NCBI GenBank assembly: GCA_004293445.1
Contig: RDYP01000003.1
Coordinates: forward strand, 186,001-250,000
Reading direction: 5' to 3'
Source of the DNA: Verrucomicrobiota bacterium
GTDB lineage: Bacteria > Verrucomicrobiota > Verrucomicrobiia > Verrucomicrobiales > Akkermansiaceae
Length of the DNA stretch: 64,000 bases
In this document: positions 46,283 through 52,897 of the stretch, piece after piece
Position numbering within the stretch: the stretch's first letter is position 1
How the letters are laid out: each line of letters begins with the position of its first letter
Translations under genes and position numbers: made by a program
Notes under the pieces: model-generated
The model's input: the letters and a program-made list of their open reading frames with translations, nothing else
Database searches by the model: none
Told to the model about the DNA's origin: nothing

Positions 46283-46735
46283 TCAGGGTCGTGGTCGCAA
46301 GGCTTCGTAGAGAGTGATCGCTACGGCGGTGGAAAGGTTCAGGCTCCGCGCCCCGCCATCGACCATCGGGATACGGATCGCACGATCGCCGGCAGCCCGC
46401 AGCATCGTCTCGGGCAGCCCGCGACTTTCCCGGCCGAAAACGAGGTAGTCGCCATCGCGAAAGTCCGCATCCCAGTGGTCGCGTGTCGCCTTGGTGCTCA
46501 GCATCCAGAAGCGAGCCGTCGGATCGGCCGCCGCCACGAGTTCATCGAAACTTTCCCAGACCCGCAGATCGACTTCCGGCCAGTAGTCCAAGCCGGCGCG
46601 CCGGACTTGTTTGTCATCGAGCGAAAACCCGAGCGGCTTGACCAAGTGCAGCCGGGCACCGGTGGCTAGGGCCAAGCGGCCGGCCGCACCGGCGTTGTGC
46701 GGGATTTCGGGTGCGACCAGTACGACGTGGATCAT
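46283..46735 (-). CDS. trmL: tRNA (cytidine/uridine-34 2'-O)-methyltransferase TrmL
   Basis: TrmL methylates the wobble nucleotide of tRNA-Leu isoacceptors. The 150-residue protein has the SPOUT fold with its knot: VLVAPEIPHNAGAAGRLA at the start, DYLVFGRESRGLP, and IPMVDGGARSLNLSTAVAI at the end. Length is typical. It is convergent with typA and has no close partner. Confidence 0.93.
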   Translation of the reverse strand: MIHVVLVAPEIPHNAGAAGRLALATGARLHLVKPLGFSLDDKQVRRAGLDYWPEVDLRVWESFDELVAAADPTARFWMLSTKATRDHWDADFRDGDYLVFGRESRGLPETMLRAAGDRAIRIPMVDGGARSLNLSTAVAITLYEALRPRP

Positions 46736-46806: not shown

Positions 46807-47067
46807 TTATGGGAGCTTGGCGAGGTACCGTTGCGGGTCTTTTTCGAATTTGGCGATACAGGGCTTGCAGCAGAATTTCACTTCTTGATCCGCGTAAACC
46901 CGGGTGATTGGCGTGCCCATCGAACCAAGGCGGTTATCGCTGACGATGCAGATTTTTTTCGGGTAGGGTTTCACGTCGCCCGTGCTGCCCGAGCCACCGA
47001 CATGGGTGGCGCTGCTGGTGCAGGATACGAGGAAGGCGGTGGCGAGGAATGCTAATGTCGTTTTCAT
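46807..47067 (-). CDS. Cys-rich lipoprotein with YHS/TRASH-like motif
   Basis: A protein of 86 residues with a lipoprotein signal (MKTTLAFLATAFLVSC, lipobox LVSC). The mature part ends with a motif like those of metal-binding YHS/TRASH domains: VKFCCKPCIAKFEKDPQRYL, with three Cys. It is the last gene of the copper operon, 19 bases after the oxidase gene. It probably binds copper on the periplasmic side; that is inferred from motif and context. Confidence 0.7.
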   Translation of the reverse strand: MKTTLAFLATAFLVSCTSSATHVGGSGSTGDVKPYPKKICIVSDNRLGSMGTPITRVYADQEVKFCCKPCIAKFEKDPQRYLAKLP

Positions 47068-47086
47068 TGTTGCCGTGGTTTGTGTG

Positions 47087-49117
47087 TTAGAAGCGGAAGC
47101 TGATGCCTCCACCAAAGCCGTGTTCGGAATGATACTGGGTGATCAGGGAGAAGGGTTTGGTCAGCAGCCAGTCGGCACCGGCGCTCCATTCCCAATCGCT
47201 ACCGGTATCGTAGCGGAGTTCGCCGAAGACTCCGAGTCGTTCGGTGATTCGCAGCGACTTGCCGAGTCCGGCACGCAGATCGCCTTCGCTGTCCAGTTGC
47301 ACTGAGCTTTCGACGAGAAATGGCAGACGGTATTCGATGCCCGCGAAGGCCCGGTCCTCCTCGTTCTCGCGATTCGTGAAGCGCCCGCCCAGGAGGGTTG
47401 AGAAGTTCGGGTTGAAGTAACGCTTCCAGCCGAGGTCGATCTCGGAGGTGACGTCGTGCTCGTGATCGATGTCTTCGTTGTGGTGGAAACCGAGATCCCA
47501 GCTCGCGAACCAGTCGTTGTGCGAGTTCATCAGAGTGAGCATGCCCATGCTCATGTGGTTCTGCAGTGTGCCGTCGGCCATGAAGTAAAGCGGATCGCTG
47601 GCGTGCTCACCGAGCTTCGGTTGATGGTTCGGACCTTGCTCTTCGTAGGAAAAGACCCGCGCCATGCCGGAGTGCATGTGGTAGAGCAGGTGGCAGTGGA
47701 AGAGCCAGTCGCCGCTCTCGTTTGCCTCGAACTCAATCGTCCGCTTGCCCATGGGAGGGACGTCCACGGTGTGCTTCAGCGGCGCGGCATCTTCTTGGCC
47801 TTCGATGACCCGGAAAAAGTGGCCGTGCAGGTGAATCGGGTGATGCATCATCGTGTCGTTGATCAGTTCCAAGCGCAGCACCTCGCCGCGCTTGATCTTG
47901 ATCACGCCGTCCTCGGCCATGGTTTTGCCGTTGAAGGACCAGATGTAGCGTTCCATGTCGCCGGTCAGGCGCAGCTCGATCGCGCGCCGTGGCAAGGACG
48001 CGGGTAGCGCGGTGGATTTCAAGGCGCGCAGCTTGGCGTAGGGCGAAAGCGGCCGTTCGGGCTCGTGGTGGGTCGACGACTGGAGGCTTTCGTCCATGGC
48101 CGCCGTGAGGTGAGCGTCCATCGAGTAGATCTCTGGTCGCGGAATCTCGGGAGCGGGGTGGGAGGCTCCCTCGCCCAGCAGGATGGACGCGTGGCCTGAC
48201 CCGTCTTGCGCGGTGGCCCGAACTTCCCACTGGCCGGAGGGAGGGACGGTGATGAGGACATCGTAGGTTTCCGCCATGCCGATCAGCAGGCGTTTCACTT
48301 CGAGCGGGCGGACCGGGGGGCCGTCGGCGGCGACGATGTTCAGCGGCCCGGTGGCGGACTCGAGATAGAAGTAGGTGGAAGCGCCCGCATTGATGAAGCG
48401 CAGCCGGACTTTTTCCCCGGGTTTTGCTGGCAGAGAGATGGACTTGCGGCCGTTGGCGAGGAAGGCGTCGTAGGCGACGTCGGACACATCCATGGCCGGC
48501 ATTCTCGATCGTTCGCGGTCCCAGAAATCGCCGAGCGCGTTGGCCTTCATCGCGCCTGTTAGGCTCTGGGCGCTGCCTTTGCGCAGCGGGTACCAATCGC
48601 CGCCGCGCATCAGCGTGCGCATCACTTCGTCCGGATGCTCGCGAGTCCAGTCGGAGAGCACGATCACGTGGTCGCGGTCGGCCTTGGCGGATTCGCCGCT
48701 CTTCGGTTCGACGACGATCGAACCGTAAACGCCACGCTGTTCCTGGAGGCCGCTGTGGCTGTGATACCAGTAGGTGCCCGCGTGCTTCAGCGGAAATTCG
48801 AACACGTGCGTTTTGCCTGCTTGGATCGGCGGCGTATTGAGATCGGGGACCCCGTCCTGGATGTTCGGCAAAAGAAGGCCGTGCCAGTGGATAGAGGTTT
48901 CCTCTTTCGCAAGGCGGTTGTGGACGCGGATCCGTGCGACATCGCCTTCGCGGAAGCGCAGGGTGGGGCCGGGGATGCTGCCGTTGATGGTGAGGGATGG
49001 GACCGGCTTGAGCCCGTCGCCGGGAGTCCATGGCTGTTCGGCGATCGAGAGTTCGACATCGACCAGGCGTCCGTGCAGGGCACCCAACGGCAGCAGCAGA
49101 TAGAGGAAGGCTTTCAT
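47087..49117 (-). CDS. Multicopper oxidase fused to a CopB-like outer-membrane barrel
   Basis: A 676-residue protein with a signal-peptide start (MKAFLYLLLPLGALHG). Residues 20 to about 500 form a CopA-type multicopper oxidase: HWHG (77-80), YHSHSG (118-123), HPIHLHGHFF and HCHLLYHMHSGM, which supply the type 1, 2 and 3 copper ligands. Residues from about 530 to 676 look like part of a CopB-type barrel: alternating amphipathic strands (FNPNFSTLLGGRFTNREN, LGVFGELRYDTGSDWEWSAG) ending in FGGGISFRF with terminal Phe. The oxidase and CopB proteins are usually separate; here they are one frame with no internal stop. It overlaps the permease gene by 4 bases. Confidence 0.85.
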   Translation of the reverse strand: MKAFLYLLLPLGALHGRLVDVELSIAEQPWTPGDGLKPVPSLTINGSIPGPTLRFREGDVARIRVHNRLAKEETSIHWHGLLLPNIQDGVPDLNTPPIQAGKTHVFEFPLKHAGTYWYHSHSGLQEQRGVYGSIVVEPKSGESAKADRDHVIVLSDWTREHPDEVMRTLMRGGDWYPLRKGSAQSLTGAMKANALGDFWDRERSRMPAMDVSDVAYDAFLANGRKSISLPAKPGEKVRLRFINAGASTYFYLESATGPLNIVAADGPPVRPLEVKRLLIGMAETYDVLITVPPSGQWEVRATAQDGSGHASILLGEGASHPAPEIPRPEIYSMDAHLTAAMDESLQSSTHHEPERPLSPYAKLRALKSTALPASLPRRAIELRLTGDMERYIWSFNGKTMAEDGVIKIKRGEVLRLELINDTMMHHPIHLHGHFFRVIEGQEDAAPLKHTVDVPPMGKRTIEFEANESGDWLFHCHLLYHMHSGMARVFSYEEQGPNHQPKLGEHASDPLYFMADGTLQNHMSMGMLTLMNSHNDWFASWDLGFHHNEDIDHEHDVTSEIDLGWKRYFNPNFSTLLGGRFTNRENEEDRAFAGIEYRLPFLVESSVQLDSEGDLRAGLGKSLRITERLGVFGELRYDTGSDWEWSAGADWLLTKPFSLITQYHSEHGFGGGISFRF

Positions 49118-50205
49118 GAGTTCAGTAGCCAGGCGATGAGGAGGACTTGGGGTACGGTGATCAGAGGCAGGGCCAGGGTCGCTTTCCAGGAGCGGGTGGT
49201 TTCCCGCAGGACCAGGATCTCGGTGTAGTCGGTGGCGACGCCGGCCATGAGGAAGGTGAAGGCGTTCCCTGGCGCGCCTGCTCGGTTCAGGAGGTCCGCG
49301 GCGATCGGGCTGGAGCCCTCCGAGCAGACCTCGATCAGGGTCGTGGCGAGCAGGGTCAGCGCGAGTCCCGCCAAGCTTGGGCCGAAGTACTGTAAAAATA
49401 GTGGTTCCGGGACGAAGGCGCGGATGGCTGCGGCGAGTGCCACGCCGAAGAAGATCCAGCGCAGGATCATCCGGGAATCCCTGAGGCCGCCCCGCGCAAT
49501 CGCGCCGAGGTTGGTGGCGTTCGGTTTCAGATCATGCAGCGCTTCCCGAAACGCCGGTCCGAAGCGGAAGTCGGCGGGAAGTTCTCGGGTGTTCGGGTTT
49601 TCCGGAAGAACGCCGCGTCGCACCAGCAGCTCCACCAGCCAGCCGCCGAGGATGCCGACGAGCATCGACAGCCCGATGAAAGCGAGCATCCATTTCCAGC
49701 CGATGAGTGTGGCGAGGATGAAGGTCAGCGAGAGCGAGTTCCATGGGCTGGAGATGAGGAAGGCGATGGTCTGGCCGAGTGAGGCGCCTTTTTTGTAAAG
49801 TTGTGCGCCGACCATCAGGATTCCGTGGCTACAGAGATCGAGCAAGGTGCCTGCAAAGACCGCGCGGAGTATCCCGCCGATGCCACCGCCCGTTCCCAAC
49901 AATCCGGTGACGAGCGTTTGCGGCATCCGGCCGATCACTCCGACCGCGACGATCCCAGCCAGCAGGCCCCATGTGGATTTGGCCATGAACTCGGCGGTGC
50001 CGTGGGCGAAGGTCTGCCACCACAGCGGCCCGGGAAGTTGACCCAGATGCCCGGCCATTCCGGCGATGATCAGCGCGAGTGAACCCCATAACAGCCAATC
50101 GATCTTGCGGCCGGGCTTCTCGCAAGGTGCGGAAGCCGGGCCTCCTCCACAGCAGCAGCGCGAAGTCGCCGGGGCGGAGGTCGATTTGGCGGAATCGTCG
50201 TCCAT
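49114..50205 (-). CDS. DUF318-type permease, probable Cu/Zn efflux transporter
   Basis: An integral membrane protein of 363 residues, with a Cys-rich cytoplasmic start (SRCCCGGGPASAPC) that could bind metal. It has about eight helices and the family motifs CSHGILMVGAQLYKKGASLGQ, SSPWNSLSLT and EVCSEGSSPIAADLL. It resembles the SO_0444-type Cu/Zn efflux family. It lies between the HMA protein gene (6-base gap) and the oxidase gene (4-base overlap). Confidence 0.78.
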   Translation of the reverse strand: MDDDSAKSTSAPATSRCCCGGGPASAPCEKPGRKIDWLLWGSLALIIAGMAGHLGQLPGPLWWQTFAHGTAEFMAKSTWGLLAGIVAVGVIGRMPQTLVTGLLGTGGGIGGILRAVFAGTLLDLCSHGILMVGAQLYKKGASLGQTIAFLISSPWNSLSLTFILATLIGWKWMLAFIGLSMLVGILGGWLVELLVRRGVLPENPNTRELPADFRFGPAFREALHDLKPNATNLGAIARGGLRDSRMILRWIFFGVALAAAIRAFVPEPLFLQYFGPSLAGLALTLLATTLIEVCSEGSSPIAADLLNRAGAPGNAFTFLMAGVATDYTEILVLRETTRSWKATLALPLITVPQVLLIAWLLNS

Positions 50206-50211
50206 GGCCGT

Positions 50212-50550
50212 CTAGGGTTTGGAGCCTTTTGCCGTGGCGAAAGAATCGGTGGTCCGCTCGACCTTCTGTGGATCGAAGCCGGACTTCCGGATGAAGTCGG
50301 TGATTTCCCGGTCGCTGATCGACGAGCCCTTTTTTTCTTCGAGGATGACGAGCTTGCGGGTCAGGTCGACATGCACTTGGGAGATCGCCGGGTGCTTCTT
50401 GAAGTGGGCGATGATGCCTTGTGCGCAAAATGAGCAGACCATGCCGTTGACAGAGGTCTTGACGGTCATGACGCGGTCGCTTGCGGCATGGGCTGGGGTG
50501 GTGGCGAAAAGCCAGGCGGCGAGAAGGCCGAGCTTGATGGAGTGATTCAT
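50212..50550 (-). CDS. Periplasmic heavy-metal-associated (HMA) protein
   Basis: A protein of 112 residues with a signal peptide (MNHSIKLGLLAAWLFATTPA) and one HMA domain whose metal motif is GMVCSFCAQG (CxxC). Such domains bind Cu(I) and pass it on. It sits upstream of the permease in the copper operon, so it likely acts as a periplasmic copper chaperone. Its C-terminal tail is Ser/Thr/Lys-rich. Confidence 0.85.
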   Translation of the reverse strand: MNHSIKLGLLAAWLFATTPAHAASDRVMTVKTSVNGMVCSFCAQGIIAHFKKHPAISQVHVDLTRKLVILEEKKGSSISDREITDFIRKSGFDPQKVERTTDSFATAKGSKP

Positions 50551-50563
50551 ACGAGTGGTTCTG

Positions 50564-51184
50564 TTAGAAATGCATCATGAACGAGAGCTGCGGATCGCCA
50601 TCGAGCGAGCAGCCGATTTCCAAGAAGTGCCTTCCTTGGAAGAGGCGGATTTTCGGGATGATCGTGAGCGCGTCGTCCATCCCGCCGATGTGTTCGAGCT
50701 GGACGATGAGCCAGGTGTTGAGCTCCTCGAATTCCGCTTGGTAGGGTGCGACGCCAAGCGAGACGCTGGTGACGTCGCGCGCGAGATCCGCCGAGCCGAC
50801 CAGCTTGCTGTCGAAGGCGGCGTAAATCCGACGGGTTTCGTAGTCGGCTCTGAAAAAGCCGAGTCCGGCGGGGATGGTGGATTCGTCGTTCTCTTGCGCG
50901 AGGCCGGCTGCCACGCCGAGGTAGAGATTGGCTTGGGCGTCGGGCAGGTTCCAACGTTTGAGCAGCCAGTTGTGCTGGAGACCGGCGAAGTGGTCCTCGT
51001 GCGCTCCCTCGTTGAAGCGCATGGCATGAAGGCCGAATGCGGTGCGCGGGGTGTAGGAATGATAGAGCTCGAGATTTTGAATCGATTCGTTGCCGCCCAG
51101 CATCCATTGCCATGCGCCTTCGAAGGCGACGGGGTGGGCGGCGGCGGTGGCACTCAACAGAGTGGAGAAAATGAGTGGTTTCAT
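50564..51184 (-). CDS. Outer-membrane beta-barrel protein, copper operon
   Basis: A protein of 206 residues with a signal peptide (MKPLIFSTLLSATAAA) and an alternating-strand pattern (NLELYHSYTPRTAFGLHAMR, FAGLQHNWLLKRWNLPD, QANLYLGVAAGLA) ending in LSFMMHF with terminal Phe, the usual mark of outer-membrane barrels. Its start at 51184 is chosen for the signal peptide. It probably forms a small pore or sensor. Family unknown. Confidence 0.65.
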   Translation of the reverse strand: MKPLIFSTLLSATAAAHPVAFEGAWQWMLGGNESIQNLELYHSYTPRTAFGLHAMRFNEGAHEDHFAGLQHNWLLKRWNLPDAQANLYLGVAAGLAQENDESTIPAGLGFFRADYETRRIYAAFDSKLVGSADLARDVTSVSLGVAPYQAEFEELNTWLIVQLEHIGGMDDALTIIPKIRLFQGRHFLEIGCSLDGDPQLSFMMHF

Positions 51185-51282
51185 CGGGTCGGGACGTTGT
51201 GATTCGAAGCCACGGCGGTTCGTCGCGGACATGCCGCGGCCGTGAGCAGGGATGAGGATGCGGCATCAAGGGCCGCATCTTG

Positions 51283-51645
51283 TCACAGGGTCCGACGGAC
51301 CAAGAGGGCGCGGCGCTCGCTTGGCGGCGCATGCCAGGGGCTCGATGGAATCCAGCGCGGGCGCGCGGCCCTAGCGGATTCCGTTTGTCGGGCGAAAGAC
51401 TGCAGGGACGAGGGTGCGGAAAGATCCGGGGGGGTGTCCGTGCGGATTGGTAGCAGATCGGTCTGCGGGAAGTCCGCAGGCGACTCCTGCGCGCAGGGGC
51501 AGTGATGATCGAAGCTCGGCTCGTCACCTCCGGGAGCGCCGCAGCAGGAGTCCGCTACGACGGTGGGTGCGGCATCGCAGCAACAGGCGCGACTATCGGT
51601 CACAAAGACCAAAAGCAGGGCGAGCAGGATGGGGGCGAGCGGCAT
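51283..51645 (-). CDS. Secreted Cys/His-rich protein, copper operon
   Basis: A protein of 120 residues with a signal-peptide start (MPLAPILLALLLVFVTDSRA). The N-terminal third has clusters of Cys and His (CCCDAAP, ADSCCGAPGG, DHHCPCAQES), which would bind Cu(I). The rest is Pro/Ser/Arg-rich and appears unstructured. It is the first gene of the copper operon and starts 10 bases downstream of a dyad. No family was recognised. Confidence 0.6.
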   Translation of the reverse strand: MPLAPILLALLLVFVTDSRACCCDAAPTVVADSCCGAPGGDEPSFDHHCPCAQESPADFPQTDLLPIRTDTPPDLSAPSSLQSFARQTESARAARPRWIPSSPWHAPPSERRALLVRRTL

Positions 51646-51756: not shown

Positions 51757-52897
51757 ATGGCAGAAATTCACACCGCCGACCTCTCGTCGCTGGACACGGA
51801 CGCTCTCAAGAGCCGTCTGACCCAGCTCGGGAGGTATCTTTGACGTCCCGAACCTTGAACGCGAAATCGGCTCCCTAGAGGCCGCGATGGGCGATCCGGA
51901 GTTCTGGAACAATCAGGAGAAAGCCCGCGCGACCAACACCCGGATCTCTTCCCTGAAGAAGAAGCTCAGTGCCTTTGAAAAACTGGAGGGGCGCTATCAG
52001 GACCTGCTTGCTGGCATCGAGCTCGCGAAGGAATTTGACGACGATCAAGCCGCGGCCGAGGCCTTTGTCCAAGCGGAAGAGCTGGATCGGGACATTGCGT
52101 CCTTCGAGCTGATCACGCTGCTCGACAAGCCGGGCGACATGTCATCGTGCTACCTCATCATTCAGGCTGGCGCTGGTGGCACGGAGGCCTGCGACTGGGC
52201 TCAGATGCTTTACCGCATGTACCAGCGCTGGGCGGAGCGCAAAGGTTTCACCTGTGAGACGATCGACTGGCAGGACGGCGACGGCGCCGGTCTGCGTGGT
52301 GCGACGATGAAAATCACCGGCGACTACGCTTACGGCTATCTCAAGAACGAGCGTGGCGTTCATCGTCTGGTCCGCATTTCGCCCTTCGACTCCGCTGGCA
52401 AGCGTCACACCTCCTTCGCGTCGGTGGACGCCACGCCTGAGGTCAACGATGAGATCAAGATCGAGATCAACGAGAAGGACATCGAGATTCAGACCACGCG
52501 TTCGGGCGGCAAGGGGGGGCAGAACGTCAACAAGGTGGAGACCGCGGTCATCCTGCGCCACCTTCCCACCGGCATTCTGATCCGCTCGACCAATGCCCGA
52601 TCGCAGGGTGCGAACCGCGAGTTGGCTTACGAGATTCTCAAGGCGAAACTCTTCCAGTTGGAGGAGGACAAGCGCAAGGCGGAGTCCGAGCGCGCCTACG
52701 GTGAGAAGGGGGACATCGGTTGGGGCAATCAGATCCGGTCCTACGTGTTCCAGCCCTATCAGAAGGTGCTGGACCTTCGCACGGGCCACGAGTCCGGAAA
52801 TATCCAGCATGTGATGGACGGCGACATCGATGCCTTCATCGAGGCGAAGCTGCGCGGCAAGGTGCGGGTCAAGGGTGCCAAGGACGACGACGATTGA
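51757..52897 (+). CDS. prfB: Peptide chain release factor 2, programmed +1 frameshift
   Basis: RF2 terminates translation at UGA and UAA. The gene is in two frames: codons 1-28 ([11 protein letters not shown] to GRYL) end at an in-frame TGA at 51841-51843, and the rest continues in the +1 frame as [10 protein letters not shown]. The shift site is CTT TGA C, preceded by a Shine-Dalgarno-like GGGAGG, the conserved autoregulatory RF2 frameshift signal: low RF2 lets the ribosome pause at UGA and slip. The full protein has about 379 residues with the SPF motif (RISPFDSAG), which recognises UGA, and the GGQ motif ([13 protein letters not shown]). It is divergent from the copper operon. Confidence 0.95.
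51830..51845 (+). promoter_or_regulatory. RF2 +1 programmed frameshift site
   Basis: An internal SD-like GGGAGG followed by TAT CTT TGA C, the canonical RF2 recoding signal. Translation continues from GAC at 51842. Confidence 0.9.

Follow-up and report, generated by a model that had tools for sequence, protein, structure and literature searches.

A Pco-like copper locus of Akkermansiaceae in which a DUF318 permease may stand in for an absent CopA-type ATPase

The window analysed here, a 64,000-nucleotide stretch of a Verrucomicrobiota bacterium of the family Akkermansiaceae (GenBank assembly GCA_004293445.1, contig RDYP01000003.1, positions 186,001 to 250,000), carries six genes, A to F, that an earlier note on this DNA had described as a copper-handling operon. 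All six open reading frames (ORFs) lie on the minus strand where that note had placed them (Table 1), with 98 bases between A and B, 13 between B and C, 6 between C and D, an overlap of 4 bases between D and E, and 19 bases between E and F; the start codon taken for B and F is an ATG inside a longer ORF. The description as a copper operon is supported by the domain make-up of the genes and by their clustering in the genus.

Cytosolic copper export is generally ascribed to P1B-1 ATPases, and operons that join CsoR to CopA, an ATPase of this type, are known. Our computations gave the identity of the six genes, their clustering in the genus and their domain make-up, the lack of any other recognisable copper exporter in the genome, the alternation of D with an ATPase among relatives, and the N-terminal tails that the two exporters have in common in some of them. 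We read the locus as, on balance, probably a Pco-like copper-detoxification operon in which the permease encoded by D would take over from a CopA-type ATPase that the genome lacks.

Table 1 Features of the locus and its flanks, in window positions
Feature	Position	Strand	Description
Gene A	51645-51283	minus	120 aa; secreted, Cys/His-rich; signal peptide; CCC, CC and HxC motifs; no known family
Gene B	51184-50564	minus	206 aa; predicted outer-membrane protein; orphan family
Gene C	50550-50212	minus	112 aa; HMA protein with a signal peptide (read from sequence), periplasmic; GMVCSFC motif
Gene D	50205-49114	minus	363 aa; PF03773 (DUF318/ArsP_1) permease; proposed copper exporter
D, N-terminal Cys tail	50104..50205	minus	Residues 1-34; most genus relatives have a longer tail
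Gene E, whole	49117-47087	minus	Oxidase and barrel fusion
E, N-terminal part	47633..49117	minus	PcoA/CopA-like multicopper oxidase; Sec-type leader
E, C-terminal part	47087..47596 (to stop codon)	minus	PcoB/CopB-like 12-strand outer-membrane barrel
Gene F	47067-46807	minus	86 aa lipoprotein; YHS/TRASH-like FCCKPC motif
prfB (release factor 2)	51759..52897 (start approximate)	plus	Flank common to cassettes of relatives
trmL-like gene	46283..46735	minus	Other flank; also near the cassette in L140; name presumed

No other copper exporter is recognised in the genome

The absence of a P-type ATPase and of a CusABC pump from the operon, remarked on in the earlier note, holds, and by motif it extends to the whole genome (97.4% complete), in which we found neither a copper P-type ATPase nor CusABC. 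P-type ATPases occur there in three places. One is a P1B ATPase with an SPC rather than a CPC motif and was for that reason set aside as a copper pump; SPC ATPases are of the P1B-4 type, which usually handles Co, Fe or Zn. The motifs PEGLP and PELLP assign the other two to other types. Four full resistance-nodulation-division (RND) pumps are also encoded, one of which passes TIGR00914. In an alignment this pump has S, V and H at M573, M623 and M672 of CusA, the positions we take to be its methionine triad, and with the triad missing it was rejected as a CusA; as a control, the CusA in the cassette of relative G006 keeps all three methionines. Because no copper P-type ATPase or CusABC was found, D is the best candidate for the inner-membrane exporter.

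Permease and ATPase alternate behind CsoR in the genus

A D-type permease is present in 15 of the 18 genomes of the genus and a CopA-type ATPase over the cut-off in 7: 11 genomes have D only, 4 have both, 3 have the ATPase only and none has neither (G010 and G004 are 72% and 61% complete). In all 12 genus genomes with CsoR, which has one gene in this cassette, the next exporter is either D (8 genomes) or the ATPase (4). The residues C-H-C, presumably the fingerprint of a copper CsoR, are present in each of the 11 CsoR sequences inspected (of 12); three of the proteins were run against NCBIfam and matched RicR best, under the cut-off. The arrangement resembles that of CsoR–CopA operons in that CsoR precedes the exporter gene in the window's relatives; it differs in that 8 of these 12 genomes have a permease as their next exporter and in that the window genome lacks CsoR.

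In some relatives the N-termini of permease and ATPase are Cys-pair tails of the same kind, attached to unrelated bodies. The ATPase tail of G008 finds its best partner in the permease tail of G006 (z 25.5, against a z of about 20 with the ATPase tail of G010), and a prfB tree places these two genomes as sisters (support 100/98). The permease tail of G007 pairs best with the ATPase tail of G010 (z 14.6 in the shuffle test, 14–16 overall) and gives a z of 14.2 with the G005 ATPase, and the ATPase tails of G005 and G010 are mutual best matches. None of 1000 shuffles reaches the score in 38 of the 96 tail pairs, in sets that include one non-genus genome among the P1B tails (G048) and three among the D tails (G027, G029 and G047), with two D tails cut by length. 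Ten ATPases from non-genus loci served as controls, and in none of the 120 control pairs did z exceed 3.3. At the DNA level the tail-sharing relatives are 84–89% identical in the CsoR stretch and 80–88% in the aligned part of the tail, and their bodies do not match. These sequences are most simply read as a single locus at which exporter bodies were repeatedly exchanged or lost. In the window, C and D are separated by 6 bases at the place that holds CsoR in six of the seven other genus genomes with C (all but G002), and the window copy has therefore apparently lost CsoR together with a portion of the D tail.

The D permease and its probable substrate

D scores 103.2 bits against PF03773 (ArsP_1), above the gathering cut-off of 32.3. 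Across 26 aligned rows, two of which (L113 and the fragment L101) are the same gene, the conserved residues are C125, H127, E292, C294, E296, D326 and E329; the pair C125-x-H127 is present in every row, and E292-x-C294-x-E296 is also conserved. By sequence, D has no relative of solved structure at E ≤ 10. On plasmids it has 15 matching records at 22–27% identity, of which L202 and L203 carry a CSCS motif, and one of these adjoins ArsR-family and thioredoxin-family genes.

The nearest named efflux family is that of SO_0444 (NF033936), like D a permease for which a role in copper efflux has been proposed. SO_0444 is needed under Cu and Zn stress and is described as a Cu/Zn efflux member of the permease superfamily (PMC3219624), Cu and Cd induce a Nitratiruptor member of the family (PMC10092412), and the CxC of the family is inferred from its UxC selenoprotein form (PMC13188914). 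D differs in its Cys-rich N-terminal tail and in the regulator of its relatives, which is CsoR where SO_0444 has a ZntR-like partner. D may work like SO_0444, but we do not file it as a member.

Several points weigh against assigning copper export to D. The tally of permeases and ATPases ignores shared ancestry, which limits its hypergeometric value (35/816 = 0.043, calculated by hand); FixI-like ATPases of about 250 bits were left untyped in it, and two of its D-only genomes (G004 and G006) carry a CPC ATPase of a class that scores under the copper cut-off. Exchange is also not the sole pattern, for G009 and G012 carry D next to the ATPase. The G011 permease tail is of the G006/G008 type, yet prfB puts G011 in another clade, so the descent of the locus is not simple. 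The window D tail, short at 34 residues, has an unconvincing best match (z 3.9); 1 of 1000 shuffles reaches its score with the G010 ATPase tail, and 23 to 651 do so with the other five. A deletion within a tandem ATPase–permease pair could likewise produce tail sharing and would not require the two to be equal in function. D finds its best NCBIfam match in the SO_0444 model, at 88.6 bits and so below the equivalog cut-off of 300, and it has C-x-H in place of the SO_0444 CxC. No CsoR was found in the window's own genome, and copper regulation of the window copy is therefore unsupported. In all four non-genus genomes with strong matches to both D and E, the two are on separate contigs, and none of the ten stretches fetched around D outside the genus gave a match to any other cassette gene.

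D might instead export a different soft substrate, be it arsenic species, Zn or a wider range, and merely share the locus, copper leaving by the SPC P1B ATPase or an RND pump. PF03773 is named after ArsP, the SaoE model scores 84.5 bits for D, nearly as much as SO_0444, which is itself needed under Zn as well as Cu stress (PMC3219624), and the genome does have one SPC ATPase and one TIGR00914 pump. We consider this unlikely: D directly follows CsoR in eight genus genomes, and in some the tail of the CopA ATPase is common to D. Of the two alternative pumps, one is of the P1B-4 type and the other lacks all three CusA methionines. The suggestion of the earlier note that the DUF318 permease may be the exporter thus gains support from the lack of another recognised copper exporter, from the alternation after CsoR and from the tails.

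E joins a PcoA-like oxidase to a PcoB-like barrel

Pfam finds Cu-oxidase_3, Cu-oxidase and Cu-oxidase_2 in E, all passing their cut-offs, and four copper motifs are present (HWHG, HSH, HPIHLHGH and HCHLLYHMHSGM). With 413.3 bits against TIGR01480 (PcoA/CopA; curated cut-off 478.95), the oxidase is, by its sequence, a diverged relative of that family. The C-terminal 195 residues form 12 strands in an AlphaFold2 (AF2) model with a pLDDT (predicted local distance difference test) of 91.8. A Foldseek search of the PDB ranks PcoB (7pge) first for this barrel (E 3.2e-6), and a VIA alignment gives PcoB a Z of 15.5, level with other outer-membrane barrels. In a single hhalign comparison, a profile of 98 E-type barrel domains matched four proteobacterial barrels with probability 95.1 and E 3.2e-8; two of the four were scanned by Pfam and both are CopB. 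Pfam gives no direct match of E to PF05275 (PcoB/CopB) at E ≤ 1. As judged from sequence and model, E is a PcoA–PcoB (CopA–CopB) fusion of a known and widespread kind. The oxidase–barrel fusion reported in the earlier note is thus confirmed, but it is no novelty: E-type fused ORFs turned up in the wider locus search in Verrucomicrobiota, Bacteroidota, Planctomycetota, Nitrospirota and others, and such fusions are in print for five Legionella species (PMC3548706) and for Bizionia argentinensis (PMC11213822). The likeness lies in the protein, an oxidase and a PcoB-like barrel in one chain; the window fusion is accompanied by B–C, D and F.

Like the pco/cop operons (PcoA and PcoB of E. coli, CopA and CopB of Pseudomonas), the locus combines a multicopper oxidase with a 12-strand barrel in a copper setting. 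It differs in having both in a single Sec-type protein, in having no PcoC, PcoD, PcoE or PcoRS recognised among its six genes, and in carrying a PF03773 permease and an HMA protein instead.

A twin-arginine translocation (Tat) leader is the rule for PcoA/CopA. No Tat RR motif is found in window E, and one precedes the oxidase in only 1 of 97 fusions, a set that includes close relatives and the truncated reading L067, and whose sole RR case (L167) may owe the motif to an over-long start. By comparison, RR is present in all seven intact stand-alone oxidases (eight rows, of which L103 is a fragment of a broken fusion), a contrast that is confounded with phylogeny except for L105, which belongs to the window's genus. 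E thus appears to be exported by Sec rather than Tat: the fused oxidase is presumably a Sec substrate because the barrel must cross unfolded, and the oxidase would therefore fold and load copper in the periplasm. As an observation apart, relative G007 has two more oxidase–barrel fusions in tandem at another locus, near a CusA-like gene (L167, 6555-11405).

The direction of transport through PcoB at the outer membrane is disputed, one article reporting that PcoB facilitates copper uptake (PMC9210255) and the other describing Caulobacter PcoB as an efflux channel (PMC12509749). The uptake report would fit an operon for copper acquisition or supply, with import through the PcoB-like barrel and loading of cuproenzymes in place of detoxification, as would the lack of CsoR in the window's genome, with which expression need not track copper excess. 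We hold this to be quite improbable in view of the make-up of the operon (oxidase, permease and Cys-rich proteins), of the CsoR gene, CopA-type ATPase or CusCBA-like set that relatives have within this cassette, and of the Caulobacter description, and we retain detoxification as the preferred function.

Conserved units of the cassette

All six genes occur together in 5 of the 18 genus genomes (the window's, G003, G007, G009 and G015), and the genus cassette adjoins prfB. Among 21 relative loci with enough downstream sequence, 20 have F after E, the exception being the stand-alone oxidase L105; in the wider search the figure is 12 of 70 such loci, none of them in Bacteroidota. These counts cover only loci from two of the locus searches, leave out 2 of 23 and 2 of 72 rows without downstream room, and score L018 as lacking F, which is found there at a distance of about 0.9 kb. 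L002 and G010:C3 are one contig and were counted once. Of five proteins that adjoin D outside the cassette, one has a Pfam match, to a generic outer-membrane protein barrel. These clustering counts define three conserved units, E–F, B–C and, in the genus, CsoR–exporter. The conserved clustering expected in the earlier note is found within the genus; outside it, D and E are unlinked.

This unlinking, and the presence of F beside E in just 12 of the 70 wider-search loci, could be taken to mean a loose neighbourhood of envelope genes without joint function. Such a reading is hardly credible given the tight spacing of the genes, the constancy of B–C (15/15), E–F (20/21 in relatives) and CsoR–exporter (12/12), and the common prfB flank: the grouping is more than chance, and relatives keep parts of the set together.

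Two side observations concern these cassettes and their flank. In relative G006 a CusCBA-like set lies within the same cassette (L138, 7048-13370), its CusA having all three key methionines. In the window, prfB contains a CTTTGA stretch at about 51825-51845, which we take to resemble the site of programmed frameshifting in release factor 2 genes.

Genes A, B, C and F

The earlier note had spoken of unknown members of the operon. This stands for A and B, neither of which has a Pfam or NCBIfam match at E ≤ 1, but not for C, D, E and F, which are of known kinds. Homologues of A (36–44% identity) adjoin B in six genus relatives. Separately, in four loci of relatives (L136, 7444-7806; L140, 10569-10931; L144, 8505-8879; L142, 6951-7334) the gene directly before E encodes an A-like Cys-rich secreted protein that ends in LQRFLI or FQRFLI; the window has no such protein at this position.

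Searches of 57 relatives and of 387 genomes of the phylum found B in 12 of the former and in 3 further genomes of the latter; on plasmids it has no match at E ≤ 1e-3. The protein ends in F in all 15 genomes, and window B has a signal peptide. These features make the outer-membrane barrel proposed in the earlier note plausible, but an AF2 model built from two sequences (pLDDT 43) does not support the barrel fold or confirm the proposal. Candidate relationships of B to CopB and to the barrel of E were each rejected at an hhalign probability of 0.6.

All 15 genomes with B have a C-type HMA gene directly after it; in the three distant ones the C-type gene was checked by Pfam in one and by eye in two. 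In these distant Verrucomicrobiota, the gene after B–C encodes a small membrane protein that contains CC (L195, 6218-7864; L158, 6528-8205; L197, 6213-7566), and in L195 and L158 a CsoR-type gene follows as well. The small protein has no Pfam match (L195 and L197) and no NCBIfam match (L195). B–C with this protein, and in L195 and L158 the CsoR-type gene, is possibly a minimal form of a B–C system. C itself scores 19.8 bits against Pfam HMA (cut-off 24.8) and 26.5 bits against the NCBIfam CopZ model, both below cut-off, and its single, weak plasmid match lies within an ATPase; F reaches 21.2 bits against Pfam YHS, below the cut-off of 30.3. C, E and F are ordinary parts; what is unusual is the exporter exchange and the B–C pair.

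Discussion

Most likely, the six-gene set would export excess copper and oxidise copper at the outer membrane. From the make-up of the locus we infer the metal, its direction, the order of hand-over and the roles of A, B and F as follows. The Cys tail of D would collect the ion at the inner face, and D would move cytosolic Cu(I) to the periplasm along a path lined by C125-x-H127 and E292-x-C294-x-E296. C, the periplasmic HMA protein, may then carry Cu(I) to the oxidase half of E, which would convert it to Cu(II) while anchored to the outer membrane by the PcoB-type barrel. A and F may bind or buffer copper, and B could be a second outer-membrane element, the partner of C.

The open-access literature that we searched yielded no description of the exporter exchange, the tail sharing or the Tat-to-Sec contrast, and no paper joining CsoR, a permease, a P-type ATPase and copper in Verrucomicrobia. 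Judging by the relatives, the usual copper pump can apparently be replaced by a membrane protein that is unrelated to it. We propose, tentatively and with less confidence than the operon-level reading, that the Verrucomicrobiota PF03773 clade is a true functional replacement of the P1B-1 ATPase, with unrelated bodies exchanged behind one conserved CsoR and Cys-pair tail, and with a carrier that has no ATPase domain serving as the sole Cu(I) exporter of the cell.

The B–C pair hints that periplasmic HMA proteins have an envelope partner not described so far. With no P1B-1 ATPase found and with D in the slot where relatives keep either D or the ATPase, the window's organism offers a test case for the replacement of an ATPase by a carrier; if the replacement is real, a clade of the little-assigned DUF318 permease family would gain a function.

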